Source of the DNA: Candidatus Rokuibacteriota bacterium
GTDB lineage: Bacteria; Methylomirabilota; Methylomirabilia; Rokubacteriales; CSP1-6
NCBI GenBank assembly: GCA_003220495.1
Contig: QHSP01000038.1
Coordinates: 62,001-126,000, forward strand
Reading direction: 5' to 3'
DNA length: 64,000 nt
The notes beneath the pieces were generated by a model. It saw only the letters and a list, made by a program, of their open reading frames with translations. It was not told the origin of the DNA and searched no databases. The position numbers and the translations under genes are program-made. Each line of letters starts with the position of its first letter. The stretch's first letter is position 1. Positions 2,823 through 55,317 of this stretch are shown here, one piece after another.

Positions 2823-5800
2823 TCAGTGAGCTGGAGAGCCGTTGCGCGGGGCGATGGTCTTGTCGCAGGGAAGCTCGACGTGGAGCGTAAGTCCGCGGTC
2901 CGGATTGGCAATGGCCCGGATCCGCCCACCGTGCGCTTCGACGATCGACCGGCTGATCGCCAGGCCCATCCCGAGCCCTCCGGGTTTCGTGCTCACGAAT
3001 CGCTCGAACATCCGGCCGAGCTCGGGCTCTTTCACTCCGATCCCCGTGTCGCGAACGGCGATCTCGACGAGGCCCGGCGTCCGGTGCGCGGTCGCGATCG
3101 CGACCTCACGCCTGCCGCCGTCGCTGTGGGCGATCGCCTCGCTCGCGTTGACGAGGAGGTTCAGGATCACCTGCTGGAGCTGGACCGGGTCTCCGGCGAC
3201 CTTGGGCACGACGGGATCGAAGACGCGCAGGACGATGATCTGCTTTCGCTGGAAATCGTGACGGAGCAGGCTCACGACGTCGTCGATCAGCTCGTTGAGA
3301 TCGAGACCGGCCTGAGGCGCGTGCTCCTTGCGCGACAGCGCCCGGAGCCGCTGAATGATCGAGGAAGCCCGCCGGGCGTCGGCCGCGACGTCGGTCAGGG
3401 CCTCCGAGACGTCCGTGTGCGTCACGCCCTGGCGCTCGAGGAGGCGAATCGCCGCCTGGGCATTCGTCACGATGGCGGCGAGCGGCTGATTGATCTCGTG
3501 CGCGAGCGAGGCGCTCAGCTCGCCGAGGGTCGTGACGCGCTGGGCATGCGCGAGCTCTTCGCGCTGGCGGCGCGCCTCTTCCTCGGCGTGGCGACGGCGC
3601 GTGATGTCGATGTAGGAGATCACGGCGCCGCCCTCGGGGCGGCGGAAGGGCTCGACGGCCATCTCGAACCAGCGCTCCCCGGTCTGCGATCGGCAAGCGT
3701 ACTCCAGCCGGGCGTCCTCCTTCTTGCCGTTGAGGATCGCCATGACCGCCTCGTGAGCGCGGAAGGCATCGACGTCTCCGGCGGCGGCCGCCTGACGCCA
3801 GACCGCGAGACAGTTGGCGCCGGCCGCCAGCCCGCGCGCGGGATCGGCGCCTTCCTCGGCGAAGCGGGTCCACGAGTGATTGACGGCGATGATGACGCCG
3901 TCGCGGTCGATCGCGGCGACCTGGCCGTACAGCGAACCGAAGATGGCGCTCCGGAGCGCATTGCTCTCGAGCACCGCCTGCAGGGCCGTGTTCAGCGCGG
4001 TGATGTCGATGACGGAGCCGACGTAGCCGACGAACGCGCCGTCCTCACCGACCCGCGGGACGCCGTGATCGAGAATCCACCGGTCCTCGCCGTCCCGGCG
4101 CCGCAGCCGGTAGTCGATCGTGAAGGTCCTCCGCTCGGCGACCGCCTGGTGGTAGGCCTCGTGGGCGGCCTTGCGGTCGTCGGGGTTCACGCTGTCGATC
4201 CAGCCGTCGGCCAGATCTTCGCCGGAGCGCCGGCCGGTCATGTCGAGCCAGCGCCGATTGAAGTACGTGCGCCGGCCATCGGGCTCGGACATCCAGATCA
4301 TCAGCGGCGCGGTGTCGGCCAGCAGCCGGAAGCGATCCTCGCTCTCGCGCGCCGCGAGCGCGGCGCGGCGCCGCGCGAGCGCGTTGGCGAAGATCTCGGC
4401 GAGGAGCCGCAGGCGCTGGGCCAGCTCGTCGGGCCACTCGCGCTCCACGCGGATCGAGCTGAACGAGAGGGCGCCTCCGACGACGCCTTCGATGATCAGC
4501 GGCACCGCCACGAACGACCGGGTGCCCAGCGCGACCAGACTGCGCCGGTCGGTCTCGGCCGAGTCGGGCAGGTCGTCCAGTCGCGCTGCGGCCACGACGT
4601 GCCCGGCCTGCAGACGCGACGCCACCCACGGAAACGCTTTCTTCTCCACGGGCCCGGCGATGCTCCCGACGCCGTCGCGGGTCCAGGAATACGTCACCTC
4701 GATCAGATCCTCGCGCCGGTCGTCGAGCTCGGCGAGGACCGCGCGGTCCAGGTCGAGCTGCTCCACGATGTGCGCGAGCGCCTTCTCGATCCGCCCCGAC
4801 ACCTCGCGGGCGGGTAAGGCGATGAAGGCGGCCGAGACCTGGGAGACGAGCCTCTCGAAGCGCAGGCGCTCGGCGAGGGCCCGCTGAGCCCGCCGGCGCT
4901 GGCGCCGGTTCACGAGCAGGCCGACGATGAGGACGGCCTGGAGCGCGACCACGGCGACGCCACCCAACACCGGCCACTTGTGGAGCTCCCACGGCGATGG
5001 CTCCCGGAAGCGCACCTCGCTCCCGGTCGGAAGCCGCCTCTCGTCGAATCCCCATCGCCGGAGCTGGCGCCAGTCGAACACGTAGAGATTCGACGCTGCG
5101 TCGGCGGGTCCGGGTCGATCTCCGCTGAGCACGCGCGCCGCCAGCTCGGCGGCTCGCACGCCCTGGGCCTGGAAGCTCACGACGTGTCCGCCGACGATAC
5201 CGCCGCCGATGTACGTTTCGCTTGATCCGTACACCGGCACGCGCGAGCTCGCGGCGACGCGCCGAACGACTTCCGTGCCGAGCACGTTTTGACTGGTGGC
5301 GTCGCGCGAGAAGCCTCCGAACAGCACGATCGTGCCCTTCGAGAACGTGGCCACGCGCTTGAGCACCTGGTCGACGGAAAGATCGGTCAGGTAGTCGATT
5401 CCGACTCGCCCCCGATAGCGGTCGGTTTCGAGCTGACGCTTGGCCGCGGCCTGCCAGACCTGATCCGTCGCTGAGGTCCCGCTGATCACCACGACGCGGT
5501 GCGTGTCGGGCTGGAGACGAAGCGCGGCGTCGAGGGTCCCCGCCCAGTCGACATTCATCCAGATACCGATGACGTCGTCGTCGAGCGCGAACTCGCCGAG
5601 CGCGGCCCGGTCGACGGCGGCGAATACGACCGGCGCGCCCGTGAAGAGATCGGCGCGATTCTGGACTGCGAACCGCAGCGCACGGCTGGCCATCGCGACG
5701 ACCAGGTCGAGCTTGACGTCGCGATACTTCTGCTCGAGCAGCGCCCGGAGCTCCGGCCGCGGCTCGTCGCCCTGGAACAGGGTCAGGTCGAGGTACTCGG

Positions 5801-6095
5801 TGTAGAAGTAGACGGGAGCCGACAGCCGCGAGGTCAGGGTGGATCGAAACGCTTCATCGATGACGATCTGAGCGGGAGTCAGTCTCGGCGCGGCGAAGAG
5901 CAGGAGCACGTTGACCGGGCGCTCGGTCTCGTCGATCGCCGGGACCACACCGTCGGCCGCCATTGCCGGTGTGGAGATCGCGAGTGTCAGGAGCAAGGGC
6001 CACAGCGCGAGCGTCGCGCGCGCAACGCCGCGGGAGAGCCTCACGACGAACGGGCCATCGGACGAGCGATTCATCACGCTCTTTTTGCCAACCAT
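2823..6095 (-). CDS. large hybrid-sensor histidine kinase: periplasmic binding-like, GAF, PAS, PAS, HisKA, HATPase
   Basis: Inner-membrane sensor kinase of 1090 residues. A signal peptide ends near LAISTPAMA. Residues ~55-345 resemble the ABC_sub_bind (TrpX-like) periplasmic fold: VNVLLLFAAPRLTPAQ, DLVVAMASRALRF, APVVFAAVDR, VVVISGTSATD and PVYGSSETYIGGGIVGG. A transmembrane helix at ~372-395 leads to a GAF-like domain (~415-565), two PAS domains (~575-690 and ~705-835), HisKA with SLAHEINQPLAA, and HATPase_c with N-box NLLVNASEA and DTGIGV/GLGMGLAIS glycine boxes. It probably senses a small periplasmic ligand and phosphorylates the receiver encoded 74 bp downstream. An alternative start is the Met at residue 8 (MNRSSDG), which gives a more standard signal peptide. 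Confidence 0.9.
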   Translation of the reverse strand: MVGKKSVMNRSSDGPFVVRLSRGVARATLALWPLLLTLAISTPAMAADGVVPAIDETERPVNVLLLFAAPRLTPAQIVIDEAFRSTLTSRLSAPVYFYTEYLDLTLFQGDEPRPELRALLEQKYRDVKLDLVVAMASRALRFAVQNRADLFTGAPVVFAAVDRAALGEFALDDDVIGIWMNVDWAGTLDAALRLQPDTHRVVVISGTSATDQVWQAAAKRQLETDRYRGRVGIDYLTDLSVDQVLKRVATFSKGTIVLFGGFSRDATSQNVLGTEVVRRVAASSRVPVYGSSETYIGGGIVGGHVVSFQAQGVRAAELAARVLSGDRPGPADAASNLYVFDWRQLRRWGFDERRLPTGSEVRFREPSPWELHKWPVLGGVAVVALQAVLIVGLLVNRRQRRRAQRALAERLRFERLVSQVSAAFIALPAREVSGRIEKALAHIVEQLDLDRAVLAELDDRREDLIEVTYSWTRDGVGSIAGPVEKKAFPWVASRLQAGHVVAAARLDDLPDSAETDRRSLVALGTRSFVAVPLIIEGVVGGALSFSSIRVEREWPDELAQRLRLLAEIFANALARRRAALAARESEDRFRLLADTAPLMIWMSEPDGRRTYFNRRWLDMTGRRSGEDLADGWIDSVNPDDRKAAHEAYHQAVAERRTFTIDYRLRRRDGEDRWILDHGVPRVGEDGAFVGYVGSVIDITALNTALQAVLESNALRSAIFGSLYGQVAAIDRDGVIIAVNHSWTRFAEEGADPARGLAAGANCLAVWRQAAAAGDVDAFRAHEAVMAILNGKKEDARLEYACRSQTGERWFEMAVEPFRRPEGGAVISYIDITRRRHAEEEARRQREELAHAQRVTTLGELSASLAHEINQPLAAIVTNAQAAIRLLERQGVTHTDVSEALTDVAADARRASSIIQRLRALSRKEHAPQAGLDLNELIDDVVSLLRHDFQRKQIIVLRVFDPVVPKVAGDPVQLQQVILNLLVNASEAIAHSDGGRREVAIATAHRTPGLVEIAVRDTGIGVKEPELGRMFERFVSTKPGGLGMGLAISRSIVEAHGGRIRAIANPDRGLTLHVELPCDKTIAPRNGSPAH

Positions 6096-48028: not shown

Positions 48029-48732
48029 CCCCCTCGCCGGGGCGCAAGCAGATCGTCGCGATGGGCGGCGGCAGCTTCAGCGTCGAGCCCGACGGCTCGG
48101 CTCTCGACGCGTACGTGCTCGCGCTGGCGGGCAAGCCGCGCCCGAAGATCTGCTTCGTTCCGACCGCGAGCGGCGACGCCCCGGAGTACACGACGAAGTT
48201 CTACGACGCGTTCGCCCGGCGGGCCGAGGCGAGCCACCTCTATCTCTTCGGACGGCCGCGCACGGACATCGCGAGCCTGCTCGCGAGCCAGGACATCATC
48301 TACGTCGGCGGCGGGAACACCGCGAACATGCTCGCGGTGTGGCGCGTGCACGGCGTCGACCGGATGATGCGCGAGGCGTGGGAACGCGGGGTGATCCTGA
48401 CCGGCGTCAGCGCCGGGATGATCTGCTGGTTCGAGTGCGGCGTGACCGATTCGTTCGGGCCGCTCGCCGCGCTACGCGAGGGCCTCGGTTTCTTGCCGGG
48501 AAGCGCGTGCCCCCACTACGACGGCGAGAAAGACCGGCGGCCGACCTATCAACGGCTCGTCCGCGGCGGCTTTCCGGCTGGCTACGCCGCGGACGACGGC
48601 GCCGCGCTGCACTTCGTCGACACCGACCTCGTGGCCTGCGTGACGTCGCGGCCGACGGCCGGCGGTTATCGCGTACGCGCCGAGAGCGAGACGGTCACGG
48701 AGACTCCGCTCTCGGTCCGGCTCCTGAGCTGA
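48025..48732 (+). CDS. peptidase S51 family protein (dipeptidase E-like)
   Basis: 235 residues from a GTG that overlaps the upstream stop (GTGA). Signatures of the S51 class I glutamine amidotransferase-like fold: IVAMGGGSFS, PKICFVPTASGD, IIYVGGGNTANMLAVWR and LTGVSAGMICWFECGVTDS, where Ser129 is the nucleophile. Dipeptidase E cleaves Asp-Xaa dipeptides; cyanophycinase-like members cleave beta-Asp-Arg. Coupling to an ICL-family lyase suggests a shared small catabolic step, not obvious from sequence. A 279-bp stretch without a recognisable gene follows. Confidence 0.88.
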   Translation: MTPSPGRKQIVAMGGGSFSVEPDGSALDAYVLALAGKPRPKICFVPTASGDAPEYTTKFYDAFARRAEASHLYLFGRPRTDIASLLASQDIIYVGGGNTANMLAVWRVHGVDRMMREAWERGVILTGVSAGMICWFECGVTDSFGPLAALREGLGFLPGSACPHYDGEKDRRPTYQRLVRGGFPAGYAADDGAALHFVDTDLVACVTSRPTAGGYRVRAESETVTETPLSVRLLS

Positions 48733-49011
48733 AGCGCGCGGACTACGCGCGGGGCGCGACTCCGTTCGACCCGACGTGGGAGCCTCGGCCGGGCCTCGCC
48801 GAAGTAGTCGATCACCCGGTCGATGCGCCGCGCCGAATCTCGCTTGAAAGGCCTGAACCGATCGAGCACGACCCCGGTGTTCATGCTCCGGGAGGTACTC
48901 AACTTCGATGCCACCTATGAGCGCCGCGTTTCCGCGGGGTTGTCGAGACGCCGTCCAGCGCGTGTTCCCAACCGGAACACGGCGTTCCTCGATGAAACGG
49001 TAGAGGCGGGC

Positions 49012-50380: not shown

Positions 50381-51373
<993 letters not shown>

Positions 51374-51421: not shown

Positions 51422-52768
51422 CTAGCGGTCGATCCCGTACTCTTTGAGCTTCCGCCAGAGCGTCGTGCGCCCGATCCCGAGCGCTTCGGCGGCACTGGAG
51501 TGGTTGCGCCCGAAACGCTCCAGGGTCTGGAGGATGTGCACGCGCTCGGTCTCGGCAAGCGTGGTTTGCCGCGGTAGCTGCGGTGAGGGTCCGAGCTGGA
51601 GACCTGCTGACACGTGCGGCGGCAGATCGTCGGGCTCGAGGGTGTCGCGGCGAGCCAGGATGGCGGCGCGCTCGATCGCGTTCTCGAGCTCGCGCACGTT
51701 CCCGGGCCACGGGTAGCGGAGCAGCCGCTCGATCGTCTCGGGCGACAGGCGCAGCTCGCGGCCGAGCTTGCCGCCCGACCGGGCGAGGAAATGCTCGGCG
51801 AGCGCCGGAATGTCCTCGCGGCGATCGCGGAGCGGCGGCAGCACCACCTGGATGACGTTCAACCGGTAGAAGAGGTCCTCGCGGAAGGTGCCCTGCGCGA
51901 GCAGCGCCGTCAGGTCGCCGTGGGTGGCCGCGATCACGCGCACGTCGATGGTCGTCGACTGCGTCGCGCCGAGCCGGCGCACCTCGCCGCTCTGGAGCGC
52001 GCGCAGGAGCTTCACCTGGAGCGCGGCGGGCATCTCGGCGATCTCGTCCAGGAACAATGTGCCGCCGTCGGCCTCCTCGAAGAGGCCGAGCTTGGAGACC
52101 GCGGCGCCGGTGAAGGCGCCCCGCATGTACCCGAACAGCTCGGACTCGAGCAAGGTCTCGGGCACCGCGCCGCAGTTCACGGCCACGAACGGGCGCGCCG
52201 CGCGAGGGCTCGCGTGATGCACGGCCTTCGCGATGACCTCCTTGCCGGTGCCTGACTCGCCCTGGATGAGCAACGTCGCGTCCGTCGGCGCCACGCGCTC
52301 GACGAGGTCCAGCACGGTCTGCATCGCCGACGACTGGGCGACCAGCCCGGGCAGGCCGTAGCGCTCCCGGAGCTGGGCGCGGAGATTCTCATTCTCGCGG
52401 CGGAGCGCGCGCCCGGCGAGCGCCTTGTCGATGCGGTGGTAGAGCTCGTCGGGCTCCTGCCCTTTCTCGAAGTAGTCGAGGGCCCCGAGGCGAATCGCCT
52501 CCTTGGCCGACTTCCACTCGGCGTACGCGGTCAGGAGGATCACTTCGGTCTCGGGCGCGTGGGCCTTGGCGACCCGCAGCACGTCGAGCCCGTTGCCGTC
52601 GGGCATGCGCAGATCGGTCACGACGAGATCGAACACTTCTTCCAAGAGCCGCGCCGTCGCCGACGTGAGGCCGTCGGCCTCGAGGACGCGGTGGCCGCGC
52701 TTGCGGAGCAGCAGCGCCAGCGTGCTTCGCGCCGACGGCTCGTCGTCGACCACCAGGAGGTGCGCCAT
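51422..52768 (-). CDS. NtrC-family sigma-54 response regulator
   Basis: 448 residues. Receiver ~3-115 with VDDE (Asp8, Asp9), Asp52 phosphoacceptor in VVTDLRMPDG, Thr80 and Lys102. AAA+ ~138-360 with Walker A GESGTGKE, GAFTGA at 217-222 and Walker B GTLFLDEIAEMP. Fis-type HTH ~405-447 (HILQTLERFGRNHSSAAEALGIGRTTLWRKL). The gene starts 1 bp after the stop of the sensor kinase. Together they probably activate the -24/-12 promoter found in the intergenic region on the kinase's other side. In the receiver the residues after the conserved Lys (FEKGQEP rather than TKPF) are unusual. Confidence 0.93.
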   Translation of the reverse strand: MAHLLVVDDEPSARSTLALLLRKRGHRVLEADGLTSATARLLEEVFDLVVTDLRMPDGNGLDVLRVAKAHAPETEVILLTAYAEWKSAKEAIRLGALDYFEKGQEPDELYHRIDKALAGRALRRENENLRAQLRERYGLPGLVAQSSAMQTVLDLVERVAPTDATLLIQGESGTGKEVIAKAVHHASPRAARPFVAVNCGAVPETLLESELFGYMRGAFTGAAVSKLGLFEEADGGTLFLDEIAEMPAALQVKLLRALQSGEVRRLGATQSTTIDVRVIAATHGDLTALLAQGTFREDLFYRLNVIQVVLPPLRDRREDIPALAEHFLARSGGKLGRELRLSPETIERLLRYPWPGNVRELENAIERAAILARRDTLEPDDLPPHVSAGLQLGPSPQLPRQTTLAETERVHILQTLERFGRNHSSAAEALGIGRTTLWRKLKEYGIDR

Positions 52769-52769
52769 G

Positions 52770-54095
52770 TCACGCGGCCTCGAGCGGAAACAAGAGCGTC
52801 ACGCGCGTGCCGCGGCCGACCTCCGAATCGATCTCGATCCGGCCTCCGTGCGCGCCCACGATGCGCTCGGCGATCGTGAGCCCCAGCCCGTTGCCGTTTG
52901 GCTTGCCCGTGTAGAACGGCTCGAACACGTGGGGCAGGTTCTCCGCGGCGATCCCGGTTCCGGTGTCGCTCACCGAGAGCGCGACGTCGCCGTTCTGGCG
53001 GTTGACCTCGAGCGAGAGCCGGCCGCGCCCGTGCATCGCCTCGACGGCGTTGAGCGCGACGTTCCACAGCACCTGGATGACCTGATCGCGGTCGAACGCG
53101 AAGCGCGGGACGGCCGGGTCGACCGCCACCCGCACGTCCACGCGCGGCGCGCGCGAGCGATCGCCACGGATGAGCGAGCTCACGTGCTGGACCACCTCGC
53201 GGATGTCGCCCGTGGTCCGCCGCGCCTCCTGGGGCCGCGCGAACTGGAGGAAATCGGACAGGATGCGGTTCAGGCGCCGCGTCTCGGTCCGGAGCGCCGC
53301 GAGCGTCGATGCGCGCTCCTCGGGGGTGAGATCGGTGTCGTCGGTGAGGAGCGCGGTGGCGTTGAGGATGGCCGCGAGCGGGTTGCGGATCTCGTGGGCC
53401 ATTCCCGCGGCGAGCTCGCCCGCGGTCGCCAGGCGCTCGGCCTCGCGCAGGCGCGCGTGAAGCCGCTCGCTGTCGCTGCGCGCACGCTCGAGCACCATGA
53501 TGATCACGGCGAAGGTCGAGAGGAAGTAGAGGAGGATGAACACCGCGTGCACCACGAGATAACCGGTCGATCCGGGGACGATGCTCACGAACTGCGTCGC
53601 GATGCGGTGAATGCCCCAGAGCGTGAGGAATCCGGCCAGGAGGCGCTCGCCGCGAAATCCGGTCATGCGCGCCTGCGGAGGCCAGAACAGCAGGCCGGCG
53701 ACGATCTGGACGAGGCCGAGCGCGATGCCGACAGCCCGTTGCGTGTCGTCGGCGGCCAAGTCGCCGGCGAGGGTCGAACCCACCGCGACGGCGGCGCCGA
53801 TCAGGATGTCGCGCGCGTGGAGTCGATACGCCCAGCGATGCGCGAATCCGGCCGCCAGCGTGAGGCCGACCGCGCCGACGGTGGTCAGATCGGTCACGAA
53901 GCTCGGATGATCGACGCCCAGCACGAGCACGTCCACGAGCTTGAGCCCCTTGGACAGCGTGTAGGCGCCCCACGCCAGGAGCAGGTACTGGAAGAACCGC
54001 ACCCGGTGCGACTGATACAGGTAGGCGAAGATCATCAGCTGGACCGCGAAGGCAATCGTCGAGACGAACGTCAGGATCAGCGGCGCCGGCATCAC
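52770..54095 (-). CDS. membrane histidine kinase, partner of the NtrC-like regulator
   Basis: 441 residues. About seven transmembrane helices occupy residues ~5-205 with no recognisable sensor domain (a 7TM-type input). A short coiled linker leads to HisKA with MAHEIRNPLAAILNATALL (phospho-His) and HATPase_c with the N-box VLWNVALNAVEAM, DTGTGI and GNGLGLTIAERIV. The input probably senses a membrane-associated or small hydrophobic cue. First gene of the kinase-regulator operon, divergent from the repeat-peptide gene with a 297-bp regulatory region between them. Confidence 0.92.
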   Translation of the reverse strand: MMPAPLILTFVSTIAFAVQLMIFAYLYQSHRVRFFQYLLLAWGAYTLSKGLKLVDVLVLGVDHPSFVTDLTTVGAVGLTLAAGFAHRWAYRLHARDILIGAAVAVGSTLAGDLAADDTQRAVGIALGLVQIVAGLLFWPPQARMTGFRGERLLAGFLTLWGIHRIATQFVSIVPGSTGYLVVHAVFILLYFLSTFAVIIMVLERARSDSERLHARLREAERLATAGELAAGMAHEIRNPLAAILNATALLTDDTDLTPEERASTLAALRTETRRLNRILSDFLQFARPQEARRTTGDIREVVQHVSSLIRGDRSRAPRVDVRVAVDPAVPRFAFDRDQVIQVLWNVALNAVEAMHGRGRLSLEVNRQNGDVALSVSDTGTGIAAENLPHVFEPFYTGKPNGNGLGLTIAERIVGAHGGRIEIDSEVGRGTRVTLLFPLEAA

Positions 54096-54178
54096 GACCT
54101 CCAGTTCAGTCTACGCTGCGCCGCAAATCGTGTGCCACGGCAGCACCGCGTCGAATCACGTGAAATCACGACGCGCGC

Positions 54179-54277
54179 GTTTCACTTCGAAACGACGTTC
54201 CACTGCGGAACCCGCGTCGCTCGGGCCAACGATCGGCGCATCTGGTGCAGCGTGAACCCGGCGTTTCGGCTTGGAAC
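54179..54277. promoter_or_regulatory. three 15-bp dyads, putative enhancer sites for the NtrC-like regulator
   Basis: GTTTC-ACTTC-GAAAC at 54179-54193, GTTCC-ACTGC-GGAAC at 54197-54211 and GTTTC-GGCTT-GGAAC at 54263-54277 share the form GTTYC-N5-GRAAC. The first two are perfect dyads spaced 18 bp start to start and are 12/15 identical to each other; the third has one arm mismatch. Another short dyad CGTGA-AA-TCACG lies at 54159-54170. They sit about 55-155 bp upstream of a -24/-12 promoter, the usual place for NtrC-type activator sites. Binding is inferred. Confidence 0.6.
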
Positions 54278-54331
54278 CGGCGCGCAGGGTCTTCGCGCGC
54301 CCGTCTTCAACGATTTCACCGGCTTCGCGTC

Positions 54332-54347
54332 TGGCACGTCCTCTGCT
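54332..54347 (+). promoter_or_regulatory. sigma-54 (-24/-12) promoter of the repeat-peptide gene
   Basis: TGGCACG-TCCT-CTGCT: the -24 half is a perfect match to the TGGCACG consensus, the -12 half has the invariant GC with one change from TTGCW, and the GG-to-GC spacing (12 bp) is exactly right. Transcription would begin near 54358, about 35 nt before the ATG at 54393, with a GAAGGAGGA ribosome site between. Confidence 0.7.
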
Positions 54348-54392
54348 CTTGCGCAGTGCGGCTCGAACAACACTGCGAAGGAGGACGAAGAC

Positions 54393-54668
54393 ATGAAGCG
54401 CACCAGCGCACTCGCAATTTTTTTGGGGACCGCACTGCTCGCGGGCGCAGCGAGCGCCGCCGTGGCGCCGGCCGAAGACATCCAGGCTCCGCGGACCAGC
54501 AGCCAGGACATCCAGGCGCCCCGGACGTCGAGTCAGGACATCCAGGCCCCGCGCACCGGCAATGAAGACATCCAGGCGCCGCGTACGAGCTCGCAGGACA
54601 TCCAGGCGCCGCGCGGCCCGCAGGCGGCGCACGACCGCAACGAAGACATCCAGGCTCCGCGGGGTTGA
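54393..54668 (+). CDS. secreted peptide of six DIQAPR repeats, unknown function
   Basis: 91 residues. Signal peptide MKRTSALAIFLGTALLAGAASA (cleavage after ~22) is followed by AVAPA and then six copies of [E/Q]DIQAPR. They are spaced mostly as decapeptides (TSSQDIQAPR, TGNEDIQAPR), with one longer spacer GPQAAHDRN before the last copy. No Cys, no domain and no family that I recognise. Each unit ends in Arg followed by Thr or Gly, so a trypsin-like protease could release near-identical decapeptides. GAAGGAGGA site before the ATG, a -24/-12 promoter 46-61 bp upstream, and a divergent sigma-54 two-component system next door. Candidate secreted signal or surface peptide; function is not inferable from sequence. 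Confidence 0.85.
   Translation: MKRTSALAIFLGTALLAGAASAAVAPAEDIQAPRTSSQDIQAPRTSSQDIQAPRTGNEDIQAPRTSSQDIQAPRGPQAAHDRNEDIQAPRG
54474..54665 (+). repeat. tandem 30-bp coding repeat
   Basis: Six imperfect units beginning GAAGACATCCAGG or CAGGACATCCAGG, period 30 bp for the first five, then a 48-bp step caused by an 18-bp insertion. Differences are mostly at third codon positions (GCG/GCC/GCT, CGG/CGC), so the repeat is kept at the protein level. Not a CRISPR array. Confidence 0.85.
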
Positions 54669-54784: not shown

Positions 54785-54970
54785 ATGGGCTGGTTCGACG
54801 CGAACGAGTATGTCCTGATCGCGACGATGGCGGAGAATCGGGTGGACGACCTTCTCTCTTCGACCGAGCTCGCGCTCGAGAGAGCCGCCATCGCCGACCA
54901 GCGCGTGGTCGGGGAGTCCGCCCACGTTTGTGACGCGCGAGGCTCGGAGCTCGGCCACCGGCCTGTTTAG
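54785..54970 (+). CDS. small hypothetical protein
   Basis: 61 residues starting MGWFDANEYVLIATMAENRVDDLLSSTELALERAAIADQ. The first two thirds look like an ordinary amphipathic helical protein; the last 20 residues look random. A GAAGGGGAG site precedes the ATG. Same strand as the repeat-peptide gene, 116 bp downstream, so it could be in the same sigma-54-driven transcript. No family recognised. Confidence 0.4.
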   Translation: MGWFDANEYVLIATMAENRVDDLLSSTELALERAAIADQRVVGESAHVCDARGSELGHRPV

Positions 54971-55131: not shown

Positions 55132-55317
55132 ATGACGGATTGGTGGCGGGAGCTCGACGACGAAATCGTAAACTATCTTATCGATCAAGAGTCGTTGACG
55201 CCCGGAGAGCTGAGTCAAAAGGTCGGCATGTCGACCGACGCAGTCACGTCATTGCTCGGACGGCTCGCCCAGGAGGGGAGAATCACCATCCTGCGAGTTG
55301 CGCGAACGTCCGGCTAG
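55132..55317 (+). CDS. small winged-helix protein
   Basis: 61 residues (MTDWWRELDDEIVNYLIDQESLTPGELSQKVGMSTDAVTSLLGRLAQEGRITILRVARTSG) that form a complete minimal winged helix-turn-helix: helices around DEIVNYLIDQ, TPGELSQKVG and STDAVTSLLGRLAQEG, then the wing RITILRV. GGGAGG precedes the ATG at 55132. It ends in an amber TAG, after which the same frame runs on without interruption into the alpha/beta hydrolase. It may be a free transcription regulator or the N-terminal part of a larger protein. Confidence 0.6.
   Translation: MTDWWRELDDEIVNYLIDQESLTPGELSQKVGMSTDAVTSLLGRLAQEGRITILRVARTSG

Follow-up and report, generated by a model that had tools for sequence, protein, structure and literature searches.

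A short exported DIQAPR-repeat protein with conserved sigma-54 linkage to a seven-transmembrane histidine kinase in Candidatus Rokubacteria

What is the role of a small exported protein composed almost wholly of near-identical short units, and is its gene controlled by the two-component system that is encoded divergently from it? The question is raised by a locus in the window analyzed here (the whole stretch of 64,000 nucleotides) from a member of the Rokubacteria, which are widespread, uncultivated soil and groundwater bacteria. The initial annotation described a 91-residue exported protein of six [E/Q]DIQAPR units, and the ORF, the signal peptide, and the unit count are all confirmed (Table 1). 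The product, MKRTSALAIFLGTALLAGAASAAVAPAEDIQAPR(TSSQDIQAPR)2TGNEDIQAPRTSSQDIQAPRGPQAAHDRNEDIQAPRG, contains exactly six [EQ]DIQAPR units, and the repeat is also detected by TRF. Position 54096 marks where the intergenic region borders the kinase gene, not the start of this ORF. The hairpin 3′ of the stop codon is the probable transcript end or an attenuator of the peptide gene, and a structured RNA in the peptide region was rejected, as Rfam gave no match. Farther downstream, a 61-amino-acid small winged-HTH protein (window 55132–55317, + strand) is kept only in the closest relatives.

Table 1. Features of the peptide–kinase locus and of the second dyad-bearing site in the window.
Feature	Position	Strand	Remarks
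NtrC-type response regulator: Response_reg, Sigma54_activat (AAA+), HTH_8 (Fis HTH)	51422..52768	-	domain search
Histidine kinase, seven-transmembrane N-terminal sensor and HisKA/HATPase_c	52770..54095	-	domain search; AF2 pLDDT 79
Predicted sigma-54 -24/-12 promoter of kinase–regulator operon (TGGCACACGATTTGCG)	54122..54137	-	kept in 12/12 divergent-type loci
Putative enhancer dyad 1, GTTTCACTTCGAAAC	54179..54193	.	
Putative enhancer dyad 2, GTTCCACTGCGGAAC	54197..54211	.	18 bp from dyad 1
Putative enhancer dyad 3, GTTTCGGCTTGGAAC	54263..54277	.	
Predicted sigma-54 -24/-12 promoter of peptide gene (TGGCACGTCCTCTGCT)	54332..54347	+	kept in 12/12 divergent-type loci
Shine-Dalgarno AAGGAGG of peptide gene	54378..54384	+	
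Class A exported DIQAPR-repeat protein	54393..54668	+	91 aa, signal peptide and 6 units
Strong hairpin, no U-run, directly 3′ of peptide stop codon	54677..54711	+	z = -3.35
Small MGWF-type ORF, 61 aa, downstream of peptide	54785..54970	+	related ORF follows same promoter elsewhere
Small ORF with conserved FKRDSxRRIDRVIDYFGE, start codon uncertain	48666..48884	-	8/8 genus loci examined
Conserved -24/-12-like element YGGCAY-N5-TTGA (-12 departs from TTGC)	48898..48913	-	
Second conserved tandem dyad pair	48964..48998 (48964–48978, 48984–48998)	.	recurs at same place in genus

The divergent genes encode, as annotated, a 7TM histidine kinase and a sigma-54 regulator, which is confirmed by their domains and by an AlphaFold2 model in which the kinase N-terminus forms seven long transmembrane-type helices. 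In a Foldseek search with this sensor model, the top matches are 7TM receptors and a rhodopsin appears lower down; because no match reaches E = 0.001, only the topology is claimed. The regulator is 72–97% identical across orthologous loci. The elements of a sigma-54-dependent two-component system are all found: an AAA+ activator with a receiver and a Fis HTH, rpoN in the genome (a single sigma-54; PF04963, E = 9e-63), and -24/-12 promoters. An orphan AAA+ sigma-54 activator that lacks a receiver domain (window 50381–51373, + strand) lies between an aldo/keto reductase gene and the regulator, and is not conserved at the locus in the other genomes examined.

The intergenic region carries the -24/-12 element and the three GTTYC-N5-GRAAC dyads that were annotated upstream of the peptide gene. 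The peptide-side element reads TGGCACG-N4-CTGC, an exact pattern expected by chance 0.14 times per window. Three features were absent from the initial annotation, namely the -24/-12 element facing the kinase, the dyad pair at 48964/48984, and a long-form paralogue of the peptide on contig C105 (see below). Since the kinase side has a -24/-12 element of its own, the kinase–regulator operon is likely autoregulated. Five dyads are observed in the window against 0.14 expected, a number reached in none of 100 shuffles, and only 16 exact dyads occur genome-wide (6 Mb). Phylogenetic footprinting of 12 divergent-type loci (11 with the peptide, plus that of genome G042) reveals two back-to-back sigma-54 promoters in every locus and a near-fixed dyad spacing, with three exact dyads in ten loci, two in one, and one in one. 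The layout is that of ZraPSR, with enhancer sites between two divergent sigma-54 promoters. Other single dyads in the genome, which have the same spacer in several species, are probably coding and were set aside.

Conservation of this arrangement can be followed in a set of 95 genomes of the phylum, 17 of which contain the kinase sensor. The repeat peptide adjoins the kinase in 12 of the 17 (the window genome and 11 with orthologues of its peptide), and the two genes are divergent in all but G038, where the peptide lies upstream of the kinase in the same direction; the outer flanking genes vary. The kinase has no adjacent peptide in four genomes (G042, G020, G051, and G044), and in G005 the locus ends at a contig end. 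The G042 locus has lost the peptide and kept its promoter, which now precedes a small MSWL ORF and an ECF sigma factor gene in that order. Class A is present in 13 of 17 genomes with the kinase versus 4 of 40 genomes of the taxonomic family without it (Fisher p = 2e-6), a rough tally in which class A detection is incomplete and related genomes are not independent. The initial annotation had named the lack of such synteny as an argument against its proposal; instead, the peptide and both promoters are kept next to the kinase across genomes, and the proposed regulatory coupling of peptide and two-component system is supported by both synteny and footprinting.

The peptide had also been suggested to be the main target of that system. 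It appears to be a main target but not the sole one, because other genes carry the same dyads, namely the kinase–regulator operon, a gene for a small protein with a YFGE motif, and genes for an MGW small protein and an accompanying ECF sigma factor. The dyad pair at 48964/48984 is partly degenerate in more distant members of the genus, and variation in the small ORF at 48666–48884 among genus loci is of the synonymous type. Elsewhere in the window genome (contig C63; L071 489–1409), a dyad and a second dyad with one mismatch are followed by a TGGTCAT-N4-TTGCA element, a gene for a 73-amino-acid MGWL...IDYFGD protein, and an ECF sigma factor gene; judging from its sites, the regulator likely has its third target here. 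The peptide operon of G050 runs on in the order peptide–MSWL–ECF sigma. ECF sigma genes thus recur with the system in the window genome (C63), G050, G042, and G038, and in G046 a class A-like peptide shares an operon with an ECF sigma factor and a zinc-finger-like anti-sigma factor (family assigned by eye). Because the ECF linkage recurs in different settings, it points to envelope sensing. At L030 735–1977, a class A-like peptide in an ECF sigma/anti-sigma operon occurs without the 7TM kinase (compare G046).

How widely does the repeat occur? A repeat query against about 85,000 bacterial and archaeal species genomes returned 34 loci, all in Candidatus Rokubacteria/Rokuibacteriota. Within the phylum set, one taxonomic family stands out: most of its genomes carry many copies of the exact motif, which outside that family occurs only singly, near the control level. 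Two architectures are distinguished. Class A proteins (53–120 amino acids) consist of a signal peptide and a few units, and nothing more. Class B proteins (about 140–435 amino acids in intact members) combine a signal peptide and a CPxEVxxAKxML helix with up to about 40 units and, at the C-terminus, a LVREAEAACKAG helical hairpin; AlphaFold2 predicts both ends as helical with confidence near 90 and the repeats as disordered (near 44). Copy number across the two classes ranges from 2 to about 40 units. Class B is found in most genomes of the one taxonomic family, mostly with sigma-54 promoters, and the window genome encodes such a paralogue (G000:C105, L021 4428–5258) with 20 units, a sigma-54 promoter, and protease neighbors, which is conserved across genera.

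Classes A and B form one previously undescribed family of exported and, by prediction, largely disordered [DE][IV]QAPR-repeat proteins. In keeping with the annotator's remark that no such family was known, relatives of the class A peptide were found neither in Pfam, NCBIfam, or PDB nor among the viral contigs searched, class B gave only weak repeat-composition matches in the same three databases, and the literature search found neither the motif in this sense nor a paper on a Rokubacteria repeat protein. A phage or plasmid origin was rejected, as there is no viral-contig relative and plasmid matches are weak, the best one (Tritonibacter) being a non-homologous simple repeat. Most genomes of one Rokubacteria family encode an exported protein of hexapeptide repeats, as a rule with a sigma-54 promoter; in a subset of genomes, the short version is coupled to a dedicated 7TM kinase.

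A sigma-54 promoter with a score of at least 7 lies within 320 bp upstream in 12 of 17 class A loci, 24 of 34 class B loci, and 155 of 5000 random windows, although binomial p values for this enrichment overstate certainty, given the imperfect background that random windows provide and the relatedness of the genomes. The class B promoter (TGGCAY-N5-TTGCT) is most often 140–165 bp upstream of the gene. Control of class B by the same enhancer dyads was rejected, as GTTYC-N5-GRAAC is absent upstream of it; conserved GGGCAGAATGCC and GGCACAACGCC-like blocks occur there instead (e.g., L103 about 5530–5870). Since these elements (GGGCAGAATGCC) differ, class B is probably driven by an activator other than that of class A. 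A search for this activator via the upstream motif gave only one exact site in the genome, and so no lead.

The repeat units themselves are extremely constrained at the protein level. Among the six class A units of the window genome, 27 synonymous and 0 nonsynonymous changes are counted (summed over pairs); for the 20 class B units, the corresponding totals are 394 and 19. The pN/pS for the core hexapeptide is 0 in class A and 0.015 in class B. These counts are biased in that units were chosen with the motif pattern; no degenerate DIQAPR unit was seen in either protein sequence. Because synonymous differences far exceed nonsynonymous ones, the units are judged old and held at the protein level. 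The class B protein of the window genome also has a few SLAGSR segments. The unit core is nearly invariant across species, and long paralogues in genomes without the kinase share it. The I/V preference of class A matches that of class B in G000, G003, and G006 versus G007 and G008, and does not in G004 and G002, a covariation that is suggestive but phylogenetically confounded and whose counts exclude G015, G012, and G038.

We tentatively favor, with confidence that stays somewhat short of even, a reading in which class A is an output of the kinase/regulator pair and, in the manner of ZraP or CpxP, serves as an exported accessory protein in a sigma-54 system that senses the envelope. The 7TM kinase would sense a signal, whereupon the regulator would bind the three dyads and activate sigma-54 RNA polymerase at both divergent promoters, so that its own operon and the peptide gene are induced; through separate dyad pairs, it may also induce the small YFGE/MGW proteins, along with an ECF sigma factor in some genomes. 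Once exported, the peptide would act as a multivalent accessory protein in the envelope, each unit being a short linear motif that engages an envelope partner common to both classes, the long class B proteins included. If it resembles ZraP and CpxP in function, the peptide may buffer or shield the envelope, exert feedback on the kinase, or both. The proposal builds, at the sequence level, on the repeats and their constraint, the export signal, synteny, the conserved promoters and dyads, and regulon members assigned by site; what it postulates is that the regulator binds the dyads, that an envelope signal and a binding partner exist, and that the peptide feeds back on the kinase.

This accessory role, in which the units act as multivalent short linear motifs, is favored because the layout equals that of zraP–zraSR. 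There, ZraR binds the bidirectional zraP/zraSR spacer (PMC8249747), and zraP and the kinase operon both have sigma-54 promoters (PMC3844500); in envelope-stress systems, ZraP and CpxP serve in the periplasm as accessory or repressor proteins (PMC10848872). The Rokubacteria locus likewise has an NtrC-type regulator and a kinase divergent from a small exported protein, a spacer with predicted regulator sites and a sigma-54 promoter for each side, and likely autoregulation (PMC8249747, PMC3844500). Judged by sequence, however, it does not belong to ZraPSR: the regulator scores 391 versus 760 bits and the kinase 205 versus 479 bits, both short of the curated cut-offs, and the peptide has no Pfam match, hence none to the ZraP family (Metal_resist), and no sequence relation to ZraP. 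The sensor is 7TM and lacks a periplasmic domain, and there are additional candidate targets, among them small proteins and an ECF sigma factor. The Cpx regulator is of the OmpR type and not sigma-54-dependent, and CpxP is a folded protein without such repeats. CpxP–CpxAR is similar in that a (here proposed) exported accessory protein is coupled to an envelope two-component system and in that an HtrA/DegP-type protease is connected with it; the CpxP–DegP work is cited in PMC10848872. PrsK–PrsR of the XrtA/PEP-CTERM system resembles the present pair in combining a polytopic kinase with a sigma-54 regulator that controls exported proteins (TIGR02915/TIGR02916 matches), but both matches are below the curated cut-offs and the class A peptide has no PEP-CTERM signal. 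Against the accessory reading, a 7TM sensor offers no large periplasmic domain on which an accessory protein could dock, the peptide shows no homology with either ZraP or CpxP in the Pfam search, the kinase persists without an adjacent peptide in four genomes, and class B, with its different upstream elements, probably answers to another activator.

The initial annotation had also considered a secreted signal, a surface peptide, or a precursor. Fungal alpha-factor is a multicopy peptide precursor with near-identical units and a 7TM receptor, and it is, together with the agr/com peptide systems and their polytopic kinases, a formal parallel to an unlikely alternative: envelope proteases would cut the repeats into identical peptides that the 7TM kinase senses in an autoinduction loop. 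The near-identical units with basic ends would suit such a precursor, as would a polytopic, autoregulated kinase next to an exported peptide, the 7TM receptors that head the sensor's Foldseek matches (none with E below 0.001), and the position of class B among M16, rhomboid, and HtrA-like peptidases. However, the unit core barely diversifies across species and is common to class B in genomes without the kinase, some kinases occur without the peptide, and no dedicated exporter or maturase adjoins class A. The HtrA-like neighbor of class B (DAPAAWGNSGGP) has an intact H/D/S triad, and its S1 specificity position is occupied by Pro instead of Asp; trypsin-type Arg processing by this protease is therefore not expected and was rejected. 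The near-invariant unit, class B without the kinase, and the non-trypsin protease argue against a diversifying pheromone, although the protein may be proteolytically processed. Alpha-factor precursors share with this system the secreted near-identical units, the 7TM sensor topology, and the M16 and serine-type peptidases near the long paralogue, but here the sensor is a histidine kinase, the unit does not diversify, and a maturation site is only hypothetical. Very unlikely is the wider version, in which sigma-54-driven multicopy precursors would be cut by envelope peptidases and read by the 7TM histidine kinase, class B being the widespread source and class A the inducible loop; if true, it would be a bacterial counterpart of the alpha-factor/7TM-receptor logic in a Gram-negative phylum.

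The same constraint on the units bears on whether the repeats could simply form a secreted zwitterionic disordered layer or adhesive whose production the two-component system times. Disordered repeats, the small folded N- and C-terminal helical clamp of class B, and the wide range of copy number accord with such a structural or surface role, but a bulk or linker function tolerates residue change, at odds with a core pN/pS of 0 in class A and 0.015 in class B, and the shortest class A members have only 53 amino acids; we consider this quite unlikely. The repeat family and its kinase-coupled subset, for which we retain the accessory reading as the preferred one, make a concrete, testable envelope or signaling system with mapped promoters, enhancer sites, and a candidate regulon, and the six-residue motif is directly synthesizable (unit peptide TSSQDIQAPRTSSQDIQAPR).

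The class B neighborhood is relevant to one further possibility. On one side lie a divergent M16 peptidase pair, a rhomboid, and TlyA, and on the other a codirectional HtrA-type protease gene, which class B directly precedes in most genera. That the repeats are a substrate, decoy, or regulator that occupies the HtrA-like protease, the M16 peptidases, or both and sets their activity, class A being a stress-inducible short version, fits this gene order and the variable unit position (V/I/T/M, the kind of residues that HtrA enzymes accept at P1) but is hardly probable, as class A loci lack such a protease, three class B loci (L108, L111, and L112) have no adjacent serine protease, and the M16–rhomboid–TlyA cluster may be housekeeping synteny. 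At L021 2984–4321, the HtrA-type serine protease continues into a transmembrane segment and then a rhodanese-like C-terminal domain, an unusual fusion. A further repeat variant (L148, L149) has CPPELAQAQ at the N-terminus and, 78 bp upstream, TGGCACCCGGCTTGCA; it is possibly a third class of repeat protein.
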